Source: Kovacikia minuta CCNUW1 | Lineage (GTDB): Bacteria; Cyanobacteriota; Cyanobacteriia; Leptolyngbyales; Leptolyngbyaceae | NCBI RefSeq assembly: GCF_020091585.1 | Contig: NZ_CP083582.1 | Span: forward strand, 124,001 to 188,000 | Reading direction: 5' to 3' | Length of the DNA: 64,000 nucleotides | Part shown: positions 5,109 through 62,182 of the stretch, piece after piece | How positions within the stretch are numbered: position 1 is the first letter of the stretch | Layout: every line of letters begins with the position of its first letter | The notes under the pieces: model-generated | Told to the model about the DNA's origin: nothing | The model's input: the letters and a program-made list of their open reading frames with translations, nothing else | Database searches by the model: none | Position numbers and translations under genes: made by a program

Positions 5109-6194
5109 CTACCATCGCTGATGCATGATTAGGGATTGGGATAATGATAGTAAGTCCGCTACTGCGGGATAGCTGAGGTTTTCAGGAAAGCGTAATCCCA
5201 AACGACAAAGGGCTAACTTTACCCAACCTTTGAAATCAAATAACTGCCATAACGCTAGATGGCGTTGTCGTAGAATTTTTACCAGTTGAAGCGGTTGACA
5301 AGTTTTCACTTGGTCTGCCAGGCAGGCTGGCACAGGCTCCCCAAAATCAACTTCCAGAAATCGCACAATCCGCAGTAGCAATACGAAACTAGGGTGGTCT
5401 GGCATTAACGCCTGCAATCGCTCAAGATTAATCTCATCCCGCCATTTTCGTAAAACAAAGGCGACATCAAAAATCCATTGAAGGATGGGACCTGTTTCGT
5501 AGAAATGTCCATCCATGTGAACCACCAGATGCACCAGCATGGCATTTGGCTCTAAAACAGGTAATGCGTTTACACTCAAGTGTTGAGGGGAAAGGTTTGA
5601 TGTCAAGCCCATTCCTTCTTTCCCTTCAAAGAGGCGAACTCGATGATGAACATCGCATAGTACTCCCATTGCATTCTCAAAATAGATTGCATCGCATGTT
5701 TCCATCACGTCTTGAGGTTGAAATCCAAGGGATTGGAACGCTTTTGTCGCAGCCCTCATCTCGTTAGCCGCGATCGCAAAATCCAGATCGCCCATTTGCC
5801 GCGTTCCCGGATCAGGATAGAAACTATCCGCCAAGGCGGCACCCTTCCAAACAACAGGACTTACATCATGAGCTTGCAGCGTCTTTAAAATGGCATCTAG
5901 TGTCAGAAGTAGTGTGAAGTTTGCCTTCTGCGTACTTTGGTAAGACTGCCTAAATTTTGCTTCATAAAGGGCTGGAAGGCGTTCCATTAAACCGTGTTGC
6001 TCAAGGTTATAGGCAACTAACGGAGTGAGTCGATGTTGCTCAAGGGTTTCCAGGCTTGCTGCCCAGTCATTTGCGTTCGCAGATTGCAATTGTTGTTGAA
6101 TAGTATCTCGAATTTCGGCATTTACTGCTTTCAATGGAAGCTGAATCAGCGTATGGGTGAGACTAGATACCATCGTATTAAACCTTAATTTCAA
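5109..6194 (-). CDS. Nucleotidyltransferase family protein (PF14907 type) of the RiPP operon
   Basis: The protein has 361 residues. The core motif is SPVVWKGAALADSFYPDPGTRQ followed by MGDLDFAI, the G-[ST]/D-x-D signature of the polymerase-beta nucleotidyltransferase superfamily in the 'uncharacterised nucleotidyltransferase' group. Members commonly sit in lasso-peptide and related RiPP clusters, where their role is undefined; transfer of a nucleotide to peptide or partner is possible but unproven. Its start overlaps the ABC transporter stop by 4 nt, so it is the last gene of the operon running from 10.6 to 5.1 kb. Family is fairly secure, reaction unknown. Confidence 0.85.
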   Translation of the reverse strand: MKLRFNTMVSSLTHTLIQLPLKAVNAEIRDTIQQQLQSANANDWAASLETLEQHRLTPLVAYNLEQHGLMERLPALYEAKFRQSYQSTQKANFTLLLTLDAILKTLQAHDVSPVVWKGAALADSFYPDPGTRQMGDLDFAIAANEMRAATKAFQSLGFQPQDVMETCDAIYFENAMGVLCDVHHRVRLFEGKEGMGLTSNLSPQHLSVNALPVLEPNAMLVHLVVHMDGHFYETGPILQWIFDVAFVLRKWRDEINLERLQALMPDHPSFVLLLRIVRFLEVDFGEPVPACLADQVKTCQPLQLVKILRQRHLALWQLFDFKGWVKLALCRLGLRFPENLSYPAVADLLSLSQSLIMHQRW

Positions 6195-8035
6195 AATAAT
6201 TCATCCCAGAGGCAGCTAACATTTTTGTTGGGGTTTGAGTTTGTTCTGCCCATGCCTGCGGCATAAAGCCCACCTTTTGCCAAAAGTTCATTATGGGTGC
6301 CTGCCTCTGCAATTTTTCCCTTTTGCATCAGGTAGATATAGTCAGCTCGCATCGCTGCTGTAAAGCGGTGGGTGATCACGATCGCAGTGCGCTCATTGAC
6401 CATTGTGCTGAACCGTTCGAGCCACTGAGACTCTGCCCAAGGGTCCATTGCACTGGTTGGTTCATCTAGGACAACAATTGGAGACTGGCGCAAAAACGCC
6501 CGTGCCAGAGCAACCCGCTGCCATTCCCCCCCACTCAATTCAGCCCCTTCTGCCAGGGATTTGCTTAGCAGTGTGTCATAGCCTTTAGGTAGCCCGGTAA
6601 TAAAGTCATGGGCACCCGCCGCAATTGCCGCTGTTTGAATTGCATGATCATTAAACCGTGCAGACGGATTGCCGACCGCAATGTTTTCCGCGGCTGTAGC
6701 TTGATAACGCACCGGAAATTGAAACAAAACCGTAAGCCGATTCTGATATTCCCGCAGACTTAAGTCTCGAATATCAATTCCATCAATCTCAATTGCTCCT
6801 GCTTCTGGGTCATAGAAACGGCAGAGAAGTTTTAGCAATGTGCTTTTGCCAGCTCCATTATCCCCAACGATCGCAATGGTTTTACCTGCTGGAATAAAGA
6901 GATCAAAATGATCCAAAACCGGAGTTTCGCTGCCGGGGTAGCGAAAGGTAACTTGTCGAAATCGAATGCCCTGAACTAAAGATAGGGGCGCAGGATGGGG
7001 GTTGGGCGGCTCCACAACCTTTGGTTGCCAATCAAGGAATTCAAATAAATGTTCGAGAAACAGGCTATTTTGATAGAGTTGCCCCACATTCCCCAGAAGC
7101 GATCTCATCAACCCTTGACCCCGATTAAACGCTTGATAGAATAACGCCAAATCACCCAGGGTTAGAACACCTAAAATGGTTTGCCAGAGCATCCAAACCA
7201 GGGCGATCGCGCCAATCAGCAATGCGGCGGCTTTCGCTCCAAGACGCACAAACGCCTGATCTCGAAGAATTTTCAGTTTTTGAGAGCGGAGGTTACTTCG
7301 CAATGCCTGATAAGCTGCCTGAAAACCATGCCCAAGATTAAATAGCCGTAACTCCGGTGCCACAAATCCACTCGTTAGCATCGAGTTATAGTAGCCGGTC
7401 CATCGCCGATCAACTGTTGTATTATGCCACCAGCGGTGATAGCGATGATTGAAGTGCATCACTACAAAAAAAGCGGGGGTCATACTCAGAACCAGCAGCA
7501 GCGGTAGCCAAAGACCGTAGGGCACCAGAATCGTAGCGATGGAGATCGCGGTAATGCTATTTTGCACAAAATACCCCAGGCTTTCCATCAGTTCCAGAGG
7601 ACGGCTACTCGCATTACTTTGGGCTTGTTCAAGGCAGTTGTAGTAATCGGGCGATTCATAGAAAGCGAGATCTGCTTCGACCGATTTCTGCTGTACTAAG
7701 GATTGAATGTAATCACCAACTACCTCAGATTGAGCCGTATTGATCCATCCGACACTCTCCTCTATCAGCATTGAGAGAATCATTGAGCCACCCATTAAAA
7801 GGGCAGGCTGAAGCAGGACTCTAGCGCTGTCTACAGTTGGTCCTAGGGCGATCGCCTTCACCAGACTATTGACCAAAACCCCTGTTAAATAAACCGTTAC
7901 TGCTGGTAAAACCCCTTGAATTGCCAGCAGTACCGTCCACGCGATCGTCCAACCAGGAGCAGGCGTCCATACCAGTTTCAGGGCGCGAGGGATGTAAACC
8001 AATTGAGTTGACAATCGTTGTAATTTATTGCGCAT
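6191..8035 (-). CDS. ABC transporter, fused permease and ATPase (RiPP exporter)
   Basis: The protein has 614 residues. The N-terminal half holds about five to six membrane segments. The C-terminal ATPase has Walker A (GDNGAGKSTLLK), Q-loop (LFQFPVRY), signature (LSGGEWQRVALARAF), Walker B (IVVLDEPTSAMD) and the H-loop (VITHR). There is no N-terminal C39 peptidase domain, which fits lasso-type clusters where a separate B2 protease removes the leader. It probably exports the mature peptide across the inner membrane as a homodimer. It starts 3 nt after the kinase gene and overlaps the nucleotidyltransferase gene. Confidence 0.92.
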   Translation of the reverse strand: MRNKLQRLSTQLVYIPRALKLVWTPAPGWTIAWTVLLAIQGVLPAVTVYLTGVLVNSLVKAIALGPTVDSARVLLQPALLMGGSMILSMLIEESVGWINTAQSEVVGDYIQSLVQQKSVEADLAFYESPDYYNCLEQAQSNASSRPLELMESLGYFVQNSITAISIATILVPYGLWLPLLLVLSMTPAFFVVMHFNHRYHRWWHNTTVDRRWTGYYNSMLTSGFVAPELRLFNLGHGFQAAYQALRSNLRSQKLKILRDQAFVRLGAKAAALLIGAIALVWMLWQTILGVLTLGDLALFYQAFNRGQGLMRSLLGNVGQLYQNSLFLEHLFEFLDWQPKVVEPPNPHPAPLSLVQGIRFRQVTFRYPGSETPVLDHFDLFIPAGKTIAIVGDNGAGKSTLLKLLCRFYDPEAGAIEIDGIDIRDLSLREYQNRLTVLFQFPVRYQATAAENIAVGNPSARFNDHAIQTAAIAAGAHDFITGLPKGYDTLLSKSLAEGAELSGGEWQRVALARAFLRQSPIVVLDEPTSAMDPWAESQWLERFSTMVNERTAIVITHRFTAAMRADYIYLMQKGKIAEAGTHNELLAKGGLYAAGMGRTNSNPNKNVSCLWDELF

Positions 8036-8038
8036 AGC

Positions 8039-9056
8039 TTAAACCGATATCACTCCGGAGCAGTCAGCCTGGATCGCATCACAAACCTGTGATAGATAAC
8101 TCATTCCGTTGGGGTACAGGAGACGGCGCACAGGAATGCGTTGAACAATCTGAGACAACTTTATCAACCGCTCTGGTGCAACCCCCATAGCATGCAAAAT
8201 GGGAGCAGCAAACGATTGTCGAATCAATTCAATGACTGCATCCCTACGGGAAACAGGGATAATTTCAATATCTGTTCCCCATACCGCTGGATCACGACGT
8301 TCTGGCAAATAAAGACACGCAAGGTGTTGAGGCAGCCCACAAAATTCGCCCCATCCCCCAGAACCCATAGGAAGGCGGCGTTTGGCAAGTGCCGGGTGAA
8401 CCAATTCTAAGCTCTTGAAAATGTCCCAGAAAATGTTCAGCCTGGTCGGGCCACAATCGCATCTGAGCATAACCAGGTCGTCCAGTAACCGTGCGGCCAT
8501 CCCACTCCAGCGGAAGAATATCATCGGTCAAGAGTGCACATCCCCGCTGAATAAAGGCAGCAGCTAAAGAACTTTTACCCCCTTGACTGGTCGCTAAAAA
8601 ACCAGCCGTTCCTCCAGTCGGAAAGACGATCGCAGATGCATGCAGTGCAGGCAATCCTTGGCGCTCTAACCAAAAAGAGAGAACTGTACCCAAAAAGTCG
8701 ATCTCCAGCTGGATGGGGTTCGCTGGTGTAGTCGGATGGCAAAGAATGCGATCGGACCAAATATAAAAATCACCAGAAGCAGGAAAATGCAAAATATCAA
8801 AATCAGATTGGGGATAGAGATGTACACCCAGATCTGGTTCATCCATTCCTGGAAAAACCGGCGGTTTCTGTTGCCAATCTTCAATCACAGGTTTTTCTGA
8901 AACACATCGAAACTGAAGGTCAGGTTGTCCCTCTGTTAGGTTTAGCGCATGGGTAAAAGCAAAATTACTACTGACCTTGAACCCAAAAATTTGATAAGTC
9001 TTTGTTGAAATTATCGAAGTATCAACATCACGATAAGGAGTCAATATGGAAAGCAT
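8039..9056 (-). pseudogene. HPr-kinase-like (RiPP tailoring) kinase, apparent +1 frameshift
   Basis: Two adjacent open frames form one HPr-kinase-like protein of about 338 residues. The first (9056 down to about 8420) carries the P-loop SQGGKSSLAAAF and LLTDDILPLEW, then RPGYAQMRLWPDQAEHF. The second continues with SLELVHPALAKRR to the end. Removing one T from the TTTT run (plus strand A run at 8418-8421) joins them perfectly as LGHFKSLELVHPAL. In some lasso clusters (paeninodin type) such a kinase phosphorylates the peptide. It lies between precursor and exporter genes, as in those clusters. Whether the frameshift is biological or a homopolymer sequencing error cannot be told here. Confidence 0.85.
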
Positions 9057-9267
9057 AATGATTCAAATGATGGCAACAAATACGGAAGGTAGTTTAACGA
9101 TTGTTCAACCAAGATCTTTGATGTCGCTTGAGAAAATCTGGTGCAGACAACTGCCCGCACCAGATTCCTGTCTTTACAAACAGAACGATCTCAAGCCAAT
9201 GACGTGTATGAGATTACTCATCAACGACTGAGTAGAAAAATATGCCCCCCCCTAAGGGCTTGTCGAA
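9057..9267. other. Short gap between precursor and kinase genes
   Basis: An open frame on the plus strand (9046-9231, 61 codons) runs against the operon and has no support. The C-rich run TGCCCCCCCCTAAGGG near 9243 may form part of a transcript-end structure after the precursor gene, but no convincing hairpin was traced. Confidence 0.3.
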
Positions 9268-9498
9268 TCACTTGTGAGGGTTACCTTTGCCCCTGCCGCC
9301 ACCAGGCTCGTCGTTAGACGGTTGGTTATGATTCGAATTCCCTGGGTCGCAGCCTTCAGAACCATTACCTAGGCCCTGATTACATTTGGGTTTAGAGTCG
9401 CCGCCAAAGGCGCTGACGCCAGCTTGCATGGTTAGTTCAACAACTTTACCCCAGTCTTGCAGTGCGGGAGCAGTATAGGGTTTCAGTGCTTGAGTCAT
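9268..9498 (-). CDS. RiPP precursor with lasso-type leader and long Gly/Asn-rich tail
   Basis: A 76-residue peptide. The leader contains PYTAPALQDWGKVVELT, which fits the lasso-leader pattern Y-x-x-P-x-L-x(3)-G-x(5)-T bound by RRE/B1 proteins. After it comes a putative core (GVSAFGGD, two later Cys residues) and a long tail rich in Gly, Asn, Ser and Pro ending in NPHK. I chose the ATG at 9498 because AAGGAG lies 6 nt upstream; a TTG five codons earlier is inside that site. Typical lasso cores are 15-25 residues, so this one is unusually long. It lies between the B2 and kinase genes. Precursor identity is likely; the product's structure is unknown. Confidence 0.8.
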   Translation of the reverse strand: MTQALKPYTAPALQDWGKVVELTMQAGVSAFGGDSKPKCNQGLGNGSEGCDPGNSNHNQPSNDEPGGGRGKGNPHK

Positions 9499-9834
9499 GG
9501 TTTTCTCCTTCAATGATTTAGTGTATACTTCAGAAACATTACAAATTGCTTTGTCAGTTGACTAAGCAGGTAGACTAATTCAAGGGGAAAAGCATTTCTA
9601 CATTAAGTGATTTGCTTATTCCTCTTCTGTTGTTTCCAGAGTCCATCCGGGAGCGGCGGGCTTCTGGAAACTTCAATATTCAAGAATTTCTTCAACGTTT
9701 CCATTCGATACGCAGTCCTTGTCGTTAACAAGTAATCGTTAACGATTAATTAATTATGAGTACAAGCAAATTTGTATTGAGAGTAATGGCATTAGATCCA
9801 CGTATATCCACAGTTCATCCGATGGCCTGGTTAT
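9499..9834. other. Leader region of the precursor gene, probable internal promoter
   Basis: There are 336 nt between the B2 gene and the precursor gene, AT-rich with runs such as TTAACGATTAATTAATTATG on the plus strand at 9738-9757. A separate promoter giving more precursor transcript than biosynthetic transcript would be expected here. No hairpin or box can be assigned with confidence. Confidence 0.35.
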
Positions 9835-10281
9835 CTAGTTAGGTATGCAGTCAAAGGAAGGAAGGGGTGTGAACGCTGAAAGATTACGACCACCACCGAT
9901 CAATACTTGCCCATTCCGCTCAATCCAGGCATGAGCAGTAAATACACCCATCTCATTGATTGCAACTCCAATGCGCAAATCAGAACGATAGCCATAGCGT
10001 TGCAACAAGAGCTGAGTTGCCAGTGCCCGTGCTAAACACTTGGGTTGCCCAGGAAGATAGTGAGTAGCTGTTTCGATCGCCCATATCACATCATCTATAG
10101 AAATCGCACTCGATGGTTGTTTACTACTGTCTTGGTTAATTACCCTCTGAATCAAGCTATTTAACTGACGAAACGAAAGCAACCATAGTCCCAAGCGAAT
10201 ACAAGCCAGAAGCGTAAATGCTCGGATTAATAAAAACCGAATATGAGACGATAACAACCAAACTTTATGCAATTGCTTCAT
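9835..10281 (-). CDS. Lasso-peptide B2-type transglutaminase-like leader protease
   Basis: The protein has 148 residues from the ATG at 10281; a TTG at 10293 would add four. After a hydrophobic N-terminal half comes the B2 core: the catalytic Cys in GQPKCLARALATQ, then LRIGV, then the catalytic His in FTAHAWIERNGQVLIGG, and a terminal FTPLPSFDC. This family cuts the leader from the precursor held by the PqqD-like B1 protein. The gene overlaps the end of the B1 gene by 17 nt, so the pair is translationally coupled. Assignment is secure by motif and context. Confidence 0.9.
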   Translation of the reverse strand: MKQLHKVWLLSSHIRFLLIRAFTLLACIRLGLWLLSFRQLNSLIQRVINQDSSKQPSSAISIDDVIWAIETATHYLPGQPKCLARALATQLLLQRYGYRSDLRIGVAINEMGVFTAHAWIERNGQVLIGGGRNLSAFTPLPSFDCIPN

Positions 10282-10588
10282 AGCTAATTTCAACCAAGCC
10301 CTTATCTAAAAGGTCATTTAAGATGCCCTTCAAGTCACACACAAACTGTTGTTGTTCAACATCGTATTCACTTAGAATGCTCTCTTTAAGAAAGTCAACC
10401 TTTACAGGTACTTGAATGAGGCTCCAGATTCGGGAAGCAACTTCATTCAAACCGTAATAAGAGCCAGTCTTAATATGCAGAATAACGGCTTCCCCATTTA
10501 AGTTAGAAGATACTTGTTCCTTAACAGCAGCAACCTGAGCCTCCAGAAACACAGCATCGGAAAGTTTCAGTAATTCTCTTTTAGCCAT
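10265..10588 (-). CDS. PqqD-family RiPP recognition protein (B1 type)
   Basis: The protein has 107 residues with the PqqD/RRE fold pattern: LNGEAVILHIKTGSYYGLNEVASRIW, then a helical C-terminal part ending in LLDKGLVEI. B1 proteins bind the YxxPxL part of the leader and present the precursor to the B2 protease. It is the first gene of the operon, and GGAGATTGG precedes its ATG. It is separate from B2, as in many cyanobacterial and actinobacterial clusters. Confidence 0.9.
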   Translation of the reverse strand: MAKRELLKLSDAVFLEAQVAAVKEQVSSNLNGEAVILHIKTGSYYGLNEVASRIWSLIQVPVKVDFLKESILSEYDVEQQQFVCDLKGILNDLLDKGLVEISYEAIA

Positions 10589-10850
10589 AATCCAATCTCC
10601 CTATTGTAGAAACAACGCATACCGTAAAAGCTGTTAGATGTTTTATTGCTTGTCTAGAACTTGAATCTAAGACTTCGATGCTTTGATACTGGAAACAGCT
10701 TGGTCTACAAAAAAGTATATTCGTATACATCAGGAATATTCGGTGCGAGCGCGCAGATTTACAAAAATTTCAACCAAGAATCTGTTTTACATAAGGCTGC
10801 CTCACGGGCGTAGAGAAGACCTTATAAAGTGCCTTTCCATATCGCCTGAG

Positions 10851-10951
10851 CACTAGTAGTCTGTCAACTTTAGCTGAGAGATAGGATTGGTTGGGTAAGG
10901 TTATGGTTTGAGAGGATTTCATCCCTCAAAAAATTCTTGACCGAACACTAG
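10851..10951. repeat. MITE-like repeat, family 1, copy A
   Basis: It begins CACTAGTAGTCTGTCAAC and ends ATTCTTGACCGAACACTAG, giving imperfect inverted ends. A related copy occurs at 33461-33550 with the same start and the same ATTCTTGAC near its end. No open frame is inside, so it would be a non-autonomous element. Confidence 0.6.
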
Positions 10952-11437
10952 TTTTCAGAGGAATCTTTGTCCGTTTGTGCAACTGGATTGTGTAAACTTT
11001 TTTTAGCACCGCCTATACTACGATTAGTCTCGCAGTATCACCCCTAGAATCACAAAATGTTGCTTTGATGGAGCAGGCAAAACTACCCTAAATGCTTCAC
11101 CCCGGTTACGTTCAACAGGACCTAGTACACACACAATATTGCCAAGTTAATGGCTTCTAACTGCCAAAACCGAAAAGGCTTTTTAGTTGAAGGGGCACCC
11201 ACTGACTCTTGTATAGATTCTCGTCAGTAAAGAATTCCTGGTAGATTCACTGCGCTACTAATGTAATCTCCCATACATTTGGAGAGATGGGATAGTAGAT
11301 CTACTAAATTCGTGAAAGCTAAATATTCAAGGTTCTTTGCGAAGATTAAATGAATTGGTTCAGATGCTGACCAATGTGAGACAGCCACTTTCTTAGATCG
11401 TGAATTAAATAACCTGATCAAATGTAACCCTTTACCT

Positions 11438-11509
11438 GTAAGGGCGCGGCATTTGGTAGAGATCTCTGGAACAAGGGTAAAGGCTTTTTGCCGAATGCCA
11501 CACCCCTAC
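11438..11509. repeat. Palindromic-end repeat, family 2, copy A
   Basis: It starts GTAAGGGCGCGGCATTTGG and ends CCGAATGCCACACCCCTAC; the two ends are near-perfect inverted repeats of about 19 bp. A second copy with the same ends lies at 38276-38346. It looks like a small interspersed element of the GTAGGGGCGTGGCA type common in cyanobacterial intergenic DNA. Confidence 0.65.
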
Positions 11510-11695
11510 GTAAGGAATTACACCTTAATAAATTCGTAATCCTTAGGAGCCAAAAGACAGGCACCAGGAGTTAGCCAGAAGGTCACCCGTGTAAGCCGAC
11601 CGCCTTCTCCCCAGGAGTTAAAAACCAGCAACAGGAGCCAGAGACCAGAAGCTAACAAGGAGCAACAGGCAGATTCGAGCTTATTACTCCGGGAT

Positions 11696-12526
11696 TCAGG
11701 TTGGATTCAAATACAACTTGATTTTTTCAGCCAGTACTCGAACGTGGGGTTCTTGCAAAATCCCCAAATGATCACCAGGAATCTCGTGGATTTTAATTCC
11801 CTTAGCAGCAAGGTCATTCCAGCACAGACGGGGATCGGAAGCAAAGGCGCTACTCACCTGCTGATCTCTGGCTTGAAATACAACAACCTCACCTGGGTAA
11901 ACTTGGGGCGTGTATTTGCTAAGAATCTTCTGGTTTTGCTTAATATAAAGAAGATCTTGGAGGCTATCAGGCAGGGGGCGATTAAGCATGCTGTAAAATC
12001 CCTCATAACCTGCTTGTAAGGCATCATGTTTTAAGGTCCACTCTAAAAACCAGCTTTTTGCCTCGGATAATGCATCGATTGACTTTGGCTGCCCAAGGTA
12101 ATTCCAAACATCCAGCAATCTTGAGCGTAATGGTAAGGCTTTCACAACTCCTGATGGGGCAAACGTATCTAGCATTCCCAGCAACGCCACTTCCTGTCCC
12201 TGTATATAAAGCTGTTGAGCCATTTCAAACGCAATTATTCCCCCCAAGGAGACGCCGATCAAATGATATGGCCCCCGTGGCTGTATCATTTGCATTTGCT
12301 GAATATAGTGAGCCGCTAACGCCTCAACTGTATTGAGGTGAATGTCTCCAACAGTCATTTGAACTGCCAATCCGTAGAGCGGGTGTTCAGCGCCCAGATG
12401 TTTTGCCAATGGACGATAGAACCTCATCCCTTTTCCCAAAACATGAATCCCAAATAGGGGAAACTTCAATCCTTTCGGTTGAATTGGCACGATCGAGGAG
12501 TGGAAAGCTGAGTTTTTCTGGAGCAT
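11696..12526 (-). CDS. Thioesterase-domain protein (NRPS/PKS TE type), stand-alone
   Basis: An alpha/beta hydrolase of 276 residues. The nucleophile elbow is GVSLGGIIAFEMAQQL, and the catalytic His is in IPGDHLGIL. The opening FPLFGIHVLGKG and the RPLAKHLG..HPLYGL segment match thioesterase domains that end non-ribosomal peptide or polyketide synthetases. Here it is a single-domain protein with no synthetase in the window. It could be a former TE domain, a type II-like editing enzyme or a free acyl hydrolase. It is transcribed in the same direction as the RiPP operon but 1.1 kb away; a link is not supported. Confidence 0.85.
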   Translation of the reverse strand: MLQKNSAFHSSIVPIQPKGLKFPLFGIHVLGKGMRFYRPLAKHLGAEHPLYGLAVQMTVGDIHLNTVEALAAHYIQQMQMIQPRGPYHLIGVSLGGIIAFEMAQQLYIQGQEVALLGMLDTFAPSGVVKALPLRSRLLDVWNYLGQPKSIDALSEAKSWFLEWTLKHDALQAGYEGFYSMLNRPLPDSLQDLLYIKQNQKILSKYTPQVYPGEVVVFQARDQQVSSAFASDPRLCWNDLAAKGIKIHEIPGDHLGILQEPHVRVLAEKIKLYLNPT

Positions 12527-22808: not shown

Positions 22809-24402
22809 TCAAACAGGGGGGGCTTTCAACACTTTCATCTCGAATGACTGGAGCGGGAGTGCTTCAGCCAACGATTCATGCCCAACAGTTTGCAAACTAT
22901 TGTGTAGAGTCGCTGTTAACTCCAGGGTTTTAGCGTCATAGATTTGGGTCAGCAGTTTGGGGTATAAACCGATGCCAATAATTGGGATCAACAGCGAGGC
23001 AATGATAAAGATCTCGCGGGGTTCCGCATCTACAAGGGCTTCATGGGAGACCAGTTCCTTGTTCTCTGGTCCGTAGAAGATTTCTCGCAGATTTGACAGC
23101 AGGTAAATCGGGGTTAGAATTACCCCAACGGCTGCCAGCAGAATCACAATGATTTTGAAGGTCTGACTGTAGGCATCACTGGTAGCAAACCCGACGAAAA
23201 CCATTAATTCTGCCACAAACCCGCTCATTCCTGGTAAGGCGAGGGATGCCATTGAGCAGGCAGTCCACATGGCAAAAATTTTCTTCATCTTTTGCCCCAC
23301 TCCACCCATCTCATCCAGCATGAGGGTATGGGTGCGATCGTAGGTTGCTCCCACCAGGAAGAAAAGGCTGGCCCCAATCAAACCGTGGGAAACCATTTGC
23401 AACAGCGCGCCACTCAATCCCAGATCGGTAAAAGAGGCGATTCCGATCGTTACAAAACCCATGTGGGAAATCGAAGAGTAGGCAATTTTGCGCTTCAAAT
23501 TCCGCTGGGCAAAGGAGGTTAATGCGGCATAGATGATATTTACAATGCCAAAAATTACCAGTGCTGGGGCAAAGACGACATGGGCATCGGGTAGCATGCC
23601 AACATTCATCCGCACCAGGGCGTAGCCCCCCATCTTTAATAGAATGCCCGCCAGCAGCATATGAACTGGGGCTGTTGCCTCCCCATGAGCATCGGGCAGC
23701 CAGGTGTGGAACGGAATGATAGGCAGTTTGACTGCATAGGCAATGAAGAAGGCAGCATACATCCAAAGTTGAAAGGTGAGGGTGTAGTTCTTAATTGCTA
23801 GCGAATGCATGTCAAAGGTCACAGTGTCACCGTAGAAGGCCATTGCCAGGGCTGCGACCAGGATAAACAGGGAACTACCCGCTGTGTACAAAATAAATTT
23901 CGTCGCAGCATACTGCCGCTTTTTACCACCCCAGATTGCCAGCAGCAGATAGACCGGAATTAGCTCTAGCTCCCATGCCAGGAAGAATAGCAGCATATCT
24001 TGAACCGCGAAAACCGCAATTTGCCCACCATACATTGCTAGTAGCAGGAAATAGAAAAAGCGCGGCTTCAATGTGACTGGCCAGGTTCGCCAGTGCTGCC
24101 AACGTGGTAATGAACCCGGTTAGCAAGATGAGCGGCATCGACAGCCCATCTGCACCGACCGACCATTTCAGGTCAAGCTGGGGAATCCAGGTGTAACTCT
24201 CAAACAGTTGCAAATCTGGACTGGACGGATCGTAGGCAGTGCAAAATGCATAAACCAAAATGACAAAATCGATCAGCCCAATAACCAGGGCATACCAGCG
24301 AACCGTTTTGCCGTCTTTATCTGGAATGAAGGGGATCAACAGAGAGGCTGCGATCGGAAACAGGATGCTGGTTGTAAGCCAGGGAAAATCAGCGGTCAAC
24401 AT
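22809..24402 (-). pseudogene. ndhD: NDH-1 subunit 4 (NdhD), apparent +1 frameshift
   Basis: An antiporter-like proton-channel subunit of the thylakoid NDH-1 complex, about 530 residues when rejoined. The first frame (24402 to about 24085) reads MLTADFPWLTTSILFPIAA to [10 protein letters not shown]. The rest follows in another frame from [20 protein letters not shown] to the end. Deleting one base within the plus-strand segment 24081-24090 restores LA-(N/T)-WPVTLKPR, the family text. The long intact remainder ([19 protein letters not shown] and so on) shows normal conservation. The gene lies 162 nt after ndhF on the same strand, the usual ndhF1-ndhD1 pair. A sequencing error is more likely than real loss. 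Confidence 0.9.
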
Positions 24403-38346: not shown

Positions 38347-38833
38347 CAGTTACCAACTTTATTTGTTTTTGTTCCTAAGAGCCATTAGTTACAGGTTCTT
38401 GGGCAGGGAAGATGTCCTGAAATTCACAGGAAATTTTGGCTCCAGGCTTTACGATGAAGCTTTCTTAAAGGGGAAAATTCTTCTGAAATTTATGGAGACG
38501 AATACGTAAAACTGGCTTCTGAACAAATCATTCAGATCCTTCCCGATGAATGGTTGGCAGTCCTTATTTTGGGAAAGGATAGAGATTAAGAAACCGATGA
38601 TGAGACGGTGAGGGGGTGGGCATTGTCTACGCTCCCCATGTCTCACCATCCTTTGCCCTGGGGCACTACCTGATGGTTAAGGCAATCTACCGTGGTGTAG
38701 CTGATAGGTTGAATACACGGAAAATTCATTACCCAGGATAGCTACTTACGTCATTTTATTCAGGAAGGTAGTCTGATCTTTGGTAAAGAAAGTGCTATCC
38801 TCCACTGTGAGTGTGTTGTGTGGAGTTAAGTTT
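38347..38833. other. Gap upstream of glmM
   Basis: About 490 nt without a supported gene. It contains an imperfect inverted pair GATGAGACGGTGAGGGG (38597) and CTCACCATCC (38642). Promoter of glmM is expected near its end. Confidence 0.4.
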
Positions 38834-40400
38834 ATGGTATTATCCCCTGCCTGGACACAGAAAACGCCTTCCCCAGGTTCATCCGCAGCCACGGGAGGGA
38901 GCACTTCCACCAAGCCACCTGAACTCTTTGCCAATTTGGAACGATCGGACGAGGCTGTTGAGAAATCCTCCCCTGGTACGGCGATCGTGGGTTCTGGATG
39001 GGGTGGTCTGGACTTACCGGAAAGCCGTCTGTTTGGTACCGATGGGATTCGAGGGCGCGTGGGTGACCTTTTGACAGCCCCACTGGCACTACAGCTTGGA
39101 TTTTGGGCGGGACAGGTGCTTCAAACCCATGCAACGAATTCTGGCCCAGTTGTAATTGGGCAGGATTCCAGAAATTCTAGCGGGATGCTAGCCCTGGCAT
39201 TGGCAGCTGGATTGACGGCAGCGGGCCTGGAAGTATGGGATCTGGGATTGTGCCCAACTCCAGGTGTTGCCCATCTTACTAGCCAGTTGGGAGCAATTGG
39301 GGGCGTGATGATTTCCGCCAGCCATAACCCTCCTGAGGACAACGGCATCAAGTTTTTTGGACCGGAGGGCAGTAAGCTTTCCCTGGTGTTGCAAGAGCGC
39401 ATTGAGGCAGCATTGCGGGGGAAATTGCCCAATCAGCAGGTCACAGGATTAGACCAATGTGGGCAGCATTACTACCGACCCGAATTGACACAGGATTACC
39501 TGGCAGCGATTCAGAAATCTCTTTGGGTAGAAACCCTAACGGAGAATTTGCCTTTGCAAGGTATTCGAGTTGTGTTAGACCTTGCCTGGGGCGCAGCGGT
39601 TCAGTTGGCTCCTGTCGCTTTTCGTCAGCTTGGAGCTGAAGTCATTTGTCTTCATGACCAGGCGGATGGCACTCGAATTAACGTCAACTGTGGCTCTACC
39701 CACCTCGCATCGCTGCAAGCTGCGGTCAGGGAACATCGGGCAGACCTGGGGTTTGCTTTAGCATGGGGATGCCGATCGGGTGCTGGCAGTCGATTCTCAG
39801 GGGCAGGTTGCCGATGGCGACTATATTCTTTACCTGTGGGGGCAGAAGCTACGACAGGCCCAGCAATTACCAGGGGATACGATCGTCGCAACGGTTATGT
39901 CTAATCTGGGATTTGAGCTTGCCTGGGAAAAACTGGGTGGTCAGTTAATTCGAGCGGCAGTGGGAGATCAGTACGTTCATGCGGAGATGCTGCGATCGGG
40001 ATCAATGCTGGGCGGCGAACAGTCAGGACATATTCTCTGCCGCCACTATGCGGTGAGTGGTGACGGGTTGCTGACAGCGCTTCATCTGGCAGCGCTGGTA
40101 CAGCAATCTGGTGTTTCCCTGGCGGAACTCATGAGCCAAAGCTTCCAGACCTATCCCCAGCGCTTAAAAAATGTACGGGTGGAAGATCGCTCCCGACGGT
40201 TGAACTGGAAGGAATGTGCCCCCCTGCAACAGGCGATCGCCCAGGCAGAAACCGCTATGGGAAATCAGGGCAGAATTTTAGTGCGGGCATCTGGAACGGA
40301 ACCTGTGATCCGGGTGATGGTAGAAGCGGTTACCACTGATCTGGTTAACCACTGGACTGAAACCCTTGCCTCAGCCGTTCAAACTTACATAGCAGTTTGA
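38834..40400 (+). pseudogene. glmM: Phosphoglucosamine mutase, apparent +1 frameshift in the metal loop
   Basis: This enzyme converts glucosamine-6-P to glucosamine-1-P for peptidoglycan precursor synthesis. Rejoined it has about 521 residues, with some 65 Pro/Ser-rich extra residues before [13 protein letters not shown]; the start could lie further in. The phosphoserine loop [13 protein letters not shown] is intact. The frame breaks at ADLGFALA. Removing the C at 39762 gives [15 protein letters not shown], the exact metal-binding loop, and the rest ([20 protein letters not shown]) follows in that frame. The site is not a homopolymer. An essential gene is unlikely to be dead; assembly error or a very recent mutation are the options. 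Confidence 0.9.
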
Positions 40401-62090: not shown

Positions 62091-62182
62091 GCGGTTGCCC
62101 ACCAACCCATCACCAGGAAAGGGGATTCAGTACAGAAGGCAGGGGGAAATAGCCCTTCTGGCTCCTGCCTCTGGTCGAACGG

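Follow-up and report, generated by a model that had tools for sequence, protein, structure and literature searches.

The 76-amino-acid open reading frame (ORF) at positions 9268-9498 (-) of the window, i.e., the whole 64,000-nucleotide stretch of the Kovacikia minuta CCNUW1 genome that was analyzed, joins a genuine lasso-type leader to a conserved C-terminal module that is also carried by proteins of several phyla. Its product is probably not a lasso peptide precursor, because the gene cluster lacks a cyclase, the Asn-synthase-like proteins of the genome fall outside the cluster-borne cyclases, and the predicted core has no Asp or Glu at positions 7-9. With moderate confidence, we propose instead that a cyclase-less, lasso-derived pathway, which is similar to that of the linear polyphosphorylated peptides (LPPs) of Bacillota but includes a B2 protease, removes the leader and exports the module as a linear peptide.

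Precursor and gene cluster

The features of the cluster are as follows.

5109-6194 (-): NTP_transf_5 nucleotidyltransferase-like protein (PF14907, E 8.4e-44)
6191-8035 (-): MsbA-like ABC exporter, 614 aa (model matches and ABC tree)
8039-8524 (-): C-terminal part of the HprK-like kinase, shifted out of the N-terminal frame near 8420-8440 (43% identical to the kinase of locus L090)
8292-9056 (-): HprK-like kinase, N-terminal frame (43% identical to the L090 kinase; Pfam 13.4 bits, cut-off 33.3)
9244-9259 (-): terminator-like hairpin just 3' of the precursor stop (z -0.32 versus shuffles)
9268-9498 (-): precursor of 76 aa, ATG to TGA, in which a lasso-type leader is fused to the C-terminal module
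9271-9384 (-): C-terminal module, residues 39-76 (CNQGLGNGSEGCDPGNS...SNDEPGG...)
9385-9426 (-): predicted core start and linker, residues 25-38, QAGVSAFGGDSKPK, with Asp at core position 10
9427-9498 (-): leader, residues 1-24, MTQALKPYTAPALQDWGKVVELTM, with Tyr-17, Pro-14, Leu-12, and Thr-2 (NF033521 17.7 bits, cut-off 19)
9499-9834 (-): gap of 336 bp between B2 and the precursor, the site of the cyclase in related clusters; no remnant found
9505-9510 (-): Shine-Dalgarno-like AAGGAG, six bases 5' of the precursor ATG
9835-10293 (-): B2 leader peptidase (NF033537, E 1.2e-32), Cys and His motifs intact
10265-10588 (-): B1 discrete RRE of the PqqD family (PF05402, E 7.2e-14)

The ORF is real, and the original prediction of an unusual RiPP-type precursor with a lasso leader is borne out by the leader spacing and the gene set. 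Tyr-17, Pro-14, Leu-12, and Thr-2, the lasso leader positions given in the available text of PMC10368454, are all present at exact spacing, and the pattern Y(-17)..P.L...G.....T(-2) has two matches in the six frames of the window, namely the precursor and an unrelated frame at 62159. Because Tyr(-17) and Thr(-2) fix the register, we place the predicted cut after Met24, which leaves a core of 52 residues (QAGVSAFGGDSKPKCNQGLGNG...) that begins with QAGVSAFGGD. An eight-residue ring closed within GVSAFGGD had also been considered; the arithmetic is right, and Thr would then stand at -4. A search with the leader alone found no close relative in the 388 genomes of the class; the best match outside the own genome had an E value of 0.055 (L152), and the places of the L040 and L090 precursors appeared at E 0.56 and 0.6. 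The hairpin behind the stop codon has the right position and a stability no greater than that of shuffled sequences.

The region after the leader, which had been singled out as exceptionally long, is indeed the longest at 52 residues, but it is less odd than was claimed: among 50 leader-bearing ORFs near B1/B2 in cyclase-positive loci, at least one of them a chance ORF, this region spans 15-51 residues with a median of 32. Two or more Cys likewise occur in seven of these 50 ORFs.

B1 and B2 lie upstream of the precursor and are adjacent, a feature of lasso peptide clusters, and the HprK-like kinase, the MsbA-like exporter, and NTP_transf_5 follow downstream. The HPr-rel-A models TIGR04352 (kinase, 11.9 versus 200 bits) and TIGR04353 (PqqD, 18.5 versus 35 bits) stayed below their cut-offs. 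At E <= 1e-12, B2 was found in two of the 42 genomes of the order, the own genome included. Could the ORF simply be an ordinary small module protein, a mere neighbor of the cluster that happens to resemble a leader-bearing precursor? Its scores with lasso_leader_L3 (NF033521, 17.7 versus 19 bits) and lasso_cyano (NF033528, 12.7 versus 33 bits) are below the curated cut-offs, and the miss of the former is in line with such an origin. We nevertheless consider it very improbable, given that all four leader positions occur at exact spacing on the strand of the cluster and that the ORF, flanked by B2 and the kinase, occupies the place at which a cyclase followed by a precursor is found in 25 of 30 six-gene loci.

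Absence of a cyclase

No macrolactam cyclase is encoded by the window ORFs of the cluster, and a tblastn comparison of the window with the cyclases from the fetched loci showed no remnant in the gap between B2 and the precursor among its best 30 matches, the best of which had an E value of 0.004 at 601-777. With the own genome counted, B2 has 69 places in 57 of the 388 class genomes; 66 stretches covering the other 68 places were fetched in addition to the own region. A frame of more than 350 aa with the motif SGGxD[SA][SAGT], which can miss variants (as it did in L181), was present in 51 of these 66 stretches and in none of the remaining 15, one of which (L037) sits on a 4.4-kb contig. B1, B2, a cyclase-type gene, a leader ORF, a kinase, and an ABC gene occur together in 30 loci, 25 of them ordered B1-B2-C-A-kinase-ABC.

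Elsewhere in the own genome, PF00733 has three matches, one of which (L006) is QueC-like by sequence while two are Asn-synthase-like. The best NF033535 match of the genome scored 100 bits, far below the cut-off of 525. We rejected this cut-off as proof of cyclase absence: six cyanobacterial cyclase-type proteins encoded next to B1/B2 reach 208-429 bits, each with NF033535 as its best model, so the cut-off does not exclude divergent cyclases and the score of 100 bits is not decisive alone. A tree was used instead. In this quick tree of 61 proteins, 47 of them cluster-borne, the two Asn-synthase-like proteins fall with stand-alone homologues from the genomes G141, G290, and G029, outside the 47 cluster-borne cyclases (support 93 at the fork between the two sets, 99 and 96 inside). 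One of the two, a 580-aa protein that lacks an intact match to the N-terminal glutaminase, scored 240 bits with TIGR03108 and 239 bits with TIGR01536 versus 146 bits with NF033535, and no RiPP genes were present in the ORFs listed around it. No cyclase of the cluster type was thus seen in the own genome.

The predicted core also lacks a usual ring residue. Asp or Glu at core positions 7-9 is present in 39 of the 50 leader-bearing ORFs of cyclase-positive loci; of the 11 exceptions, nine have Trp-type leaders, one lies in L050 and has Asp10, and the last is a chance ORF. The cyclase-less loci contribute ten such ORFs, the own ORF and one chance ORF included, and a single one of them (L082) has an acid at these positions. 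The window precursor has Asp at position 10, and its core start resembles that of the L090 precursor (QVGMTFTTDSFG with Asp9 in L090, QAGVSAFGGDSKP in the window). The L090 cluster bears a cyclase and also has the closest kinase; descent of the window precursor from a lasso precursor with a shifted ring position is plausible.

The earlier reading as a lasso peptide is at odds with these findings, unless another ATP-dependent amidotransferase acts in trans to close the ring. In favor of this, the leader and B1/B2 are of the lasso type, the 580-aa protein without an intact glutaminase match could be a candidate enzyme, cluster-borne cyclases can score far under the NF033535 cut-off, and the L050 ORF beside a cyclase likewise has its first acid at position 10. 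However, the 580-aa protein groups with stand-alone homologues, its listed neighboring ORFs include no RiPP genes, and a ten-residue ring from Gln1 would exceed the range of 7-9 residues given in the available text of PMC10368454. Trans-cyclization is, in our estimate, the least probable of the explanations considered and extremely unlikely.

Cyclase-less relatives

Four cyanobacterial loci (L040, L041, L045, L089) are similar to the window in that they carry B2, a kinase, and ABC with no cyclase in the stretch; L040, L041, and L045 also encode B1 and NTP transferase. They differ in that their precursors are short, start with QVGGSGGFGTT or a similar sequence, and lack the module, and they are not grouped with the window in the ABC tree. 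In the original prediction, the tail was to count as non-functional if homologues kept a short core while their tails varied. Such precursors do exist in these four loci, which are a possible cyanobacterial LPP-like family with variable precursor ends; the window tail, by contrast, is conserved with other proteins and hence is not a freely varying end. In G141 (L045), no lasso-type cyclase was seen elsewhere, as the matches to the cyclase model are AsnB or of the stand-alone type, and none was seen elsewhere in G335 (L041), where the match is a protein starting with MCGISG that lies between other genes. G290 (L040) and G029 (L089), in contrast, each carry another cluster that does include a cyclase-type gene (L044 and L088, respectively). 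A single clade of cyclase-less clusters was unsupported, as the ABC tree required five changes for six rows and the B2 tree 11 for 15. L047 is an apparently decayed duplicate cluster in which kinase and ABC matches share one frame and no cyclase was found; another cluster of the same genome, L052, has all genes.

A conserved C-terminal module

The tail had been described as rich in Gly, Asn, and Ser. The composition is as described, yet the tail is more than a compositional feature and is not peculiar to this gene: it is a conserved module common to many other proteins, with the consensus CNQGxGNGxEGCDPGNSxxxxxSNDExGG. Both the conserved core NQG.GNG.E..DPGNS.....SNDE.G and the C-terminal position are found in the window precursor. 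A profile of 15 module segments detected the module in 60 of the 388 class genomes at E <= 1e-5, and P0001 as query gave module places in 61 of the 388, own included. Another protein encoded by the own genome matches the window tail at 73% identity; with identity at only 46 of 59 nucleotides, a recent copy of that gene was rejected as the source of the tail. A scan of genome contigs with exact-stretch patterns, which reaches close relatives only, found three further module loci, in which large proteins of Archangium and of Vicinamibacterales and Gemmatimonadetes metagenome-assembled genomes (MAGs) end with the module; the window tail is 83, 69, and 75% identical to these, respectively. The window variant with NHNQPSNDE is nearer to these three non-cyanobacterial rows (78, 65, and 68%) than to eleven cyanobacterial rows (50-62%). 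Module relatives on plasmids and viral contigs were not found.

In other settings the module terminates predicted secreted or surface proteins. The carriers of Archangium (L139) and Gemmatimonadetes (L141) match the ice-binding family PF11999, and the Vicinamibacterales carrier (L140), which has no Pfam match, is identical to L139 at 53% of 272 aligned positions. All three are large and share the C-terminal module with the window precursor but have no RiPP leader. The same is true for large cyanobacterial proteins, mostly with an RPHGGSNDEGG-like variant, among them the SLH-domain protein L102 (PF00395) with the module at its extreme C-terminus. L002, L121, and L125 have no Pfam match at all, and no Pfam or NCBIfam model covers the module in the carriers scanned. 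Our literature search on DPGNS in cyanobacteria found nothing, and DPGNS alone gave unrelated titles. L121 is a 123-aa frame that consists of a signal-peptide-like start (judged by eye, as were all signal peptides), an acidic linker, and the module alone. It is a natural parallel: the module is there apparently exported by itself via Sec, and would be exported on a RiPP leader in the window. Four small GYGG-repeat proteins (L122, L123, L146, L147) bear a Cys-less form of the module.

Among 51 distinct module instances, which are those in the fetched loci and not a random sample, 48 lie at most 22 residues from the stop and 19 are preceded by an Asp-rich stretch. The remaining three are tandem copies, 85 aa apart and accompanied by AGYGGTV segments, in the 348-aa frame of a GYGG-repeat protein (L145:7927-8970, -). 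Both Cys are present in 43 instances, neither in seven, and one in a single instance, a frame with stops. This joint presence or loss of the two Cys suggests a disulfide. AlphaFold gave no confident structure for the module (pLDDT 52).

The position of the module raises the alternative that the tail serves as a signal for targeting or anchoring, or as a follower, and that the functional peptide is the short QAGVSAFGGD part, which may be phosphorylated and which the module places at the surface. This is compatible with the C-terminal location in 48 of 51 instances, the Asp-rich stretch before 19 of them, and the short conserved core start retained by the cyclase-less relatives. The three tandem copies in L145, none near the stop, fit a structural unit better, and the module is without a hydrophobic segment; we therefore regard a signal function as improbable. 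The earlier suggestion that the tail may itself be the product is supported as a possibility.

No second fusion of leader and module was seen among the inspected P0001 matches in the 388 class genomes and two further orders (63 and 36 genomes, largely overlapping the 388), nor in the genome-contig scan with its reach to close relatives only. The YxxPxL leader was absent from all inspected module frames below 200 aa.

Decayed cluster or functional pathway

The main and serious rival to linear export is a degenerate lasso cluster that lost its cyclase, had the end of its precursor replaced by a stray module via recombination, and makes nothing useful. There is no cyclase, the kinase is frameshifted, the fusion is known in a single instance, the core start is like that of the L090 precursor with the Asp moved from 9 to 10, and decay is seen in relatives such as L047. 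On the other hand, the frames of the precursor, B1, B2, ABC, and NTP run without a break, a good Shine-Dalgarno sequence precedes the precursor, and the module retains its conserved residues. The kinase frameshift itself may be an assembly error and not decay. Both kinase halves resemble one kinase of another cyanobacterium, L090, and the HprK-like assignment is by homology to this protein. In the same window, ndhD is split between 22809-24071 and 23923-24402 (-) and glmM between 38780-39904 and 39780-40400 (+), each with near-continuous model coverage. Both are normally core or essential genes, and since they are split like the kinase, indel errors in the assembly are likely. A flavoprotein-like ORF (by eye) elsewhere in the own genome (L130:4212-6123, +) is also apparently split between two frames. 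Overall, we judge degeneration to be rather unlikely, though well short of improbable.

Comparison with known systems

The closest known systems are the LPPs of Bacillota, which, according to the available text of PMC13381572, combine a discrete RRE, an HprK-like kinase, an NTP transferase, and an MsbA-like exporter with no macrolactam cyclase. The window has this set, with a kinase that is split and below the Pfam cut-off. The precursors are also alike in their YxxP leader, and LPP C-termini are variable (PMC13381572, available text). LPPs, which that text describes as restricted to Bacillota, differ by a SipW-like signal peptidase and the precursor motif YxxPxVLxHQxIxFETxxS. No SipW-like signal peptidase was found among the eight proteins scanned in 5109-12526, where B2 is present instead, and the motif, in the form given there, is absent from the window precursor. 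Further distinctions of the window are the lasso B2 protease, the lasso-type leader, the cyanobacterial host, in line with matches to cyanobacterial-type NAD(P)H-quinone oxidoreductase models, and a conserved module as core. Because it has the cyclase-less enzyme set of the LPPs without their signal peptidase or precursor motif, we class the system as LPP-like, B2-dependent, and lasso-derived with a module core.

Phosphorylated lasso peptides (paeninodin, pseudomycoidin, Bsf), as far as the available sources describe them, are similar to the window in B1, B2, kinase, and, in some, NTP transferase, and their leaders share Tyr-17, Pro-14, Leu-12, and Thr-2 with the window precursor. The window differs by the lack of a cyclase and of an acid at core positions 7-9.

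Proposed pathway and implications

Since the gene set has no ring-closing enzyme and the tail is that of predicted secreted or surface proteins, an open-chain exported peptide is likely, rather than a lasso. Briefly, B1 would bind the YxxPxL leader, and the kinase and the NTP transferase may first phosphorylate or further decorate Ser, with glycosylation as an option, all before cleavage. Such decoration prior to cleavage has precedents in paeninodin and pseudomycoidin (PMC9266682) and in LPPs (PMC13381572), as described in the available text of these sources. B2, guided by the RRE, would then cut after Met24, one residue past Thr23, and the ABC exporter would release the linear 52-residue peptide, most of which is the CNQGxGNGxEGCDPGNS module. 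The two module Cys could form a disulfide outside the cell. In this manner the module would reach the exterior on a RiPP leader and not on a signal peptide.

The exact leader spacing, the intact B1 and B2, the absence of a cyclase, and the conserved C-terminal module favor linear export, whereas the single fusion instance, the kinase frameshift, the low-confidence module fold, and the lack of a ring acid in 11 of the 50 comparison ORFs as well weigh against it. More tentatively, we suggest that a RiPP leader and a lasso-derived protease and exporter have been recruited in place of a signal peptide, delivering a conserved, disulfide-bearing module as a free, possibly phosphorylated linear peptide, in what may be a B2-dependent cyanobacterial counterpart of the LPPs. 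The fusion is known from one genome; if the cluster is merely decayed, it advises caution for RiPP mining by leader alone. A short conserved module is also picked out that has no Pfam or NCBIfam model in the scanned carriers and whose function would become testable through its free form. If the proposal holds, cyclase-less lasso-like pathways would reach beyond Bacillota and the SipW-type peptidase, and the lasso machinery would be reusable without its defining cyclase for the export of a pre-existing protein module.
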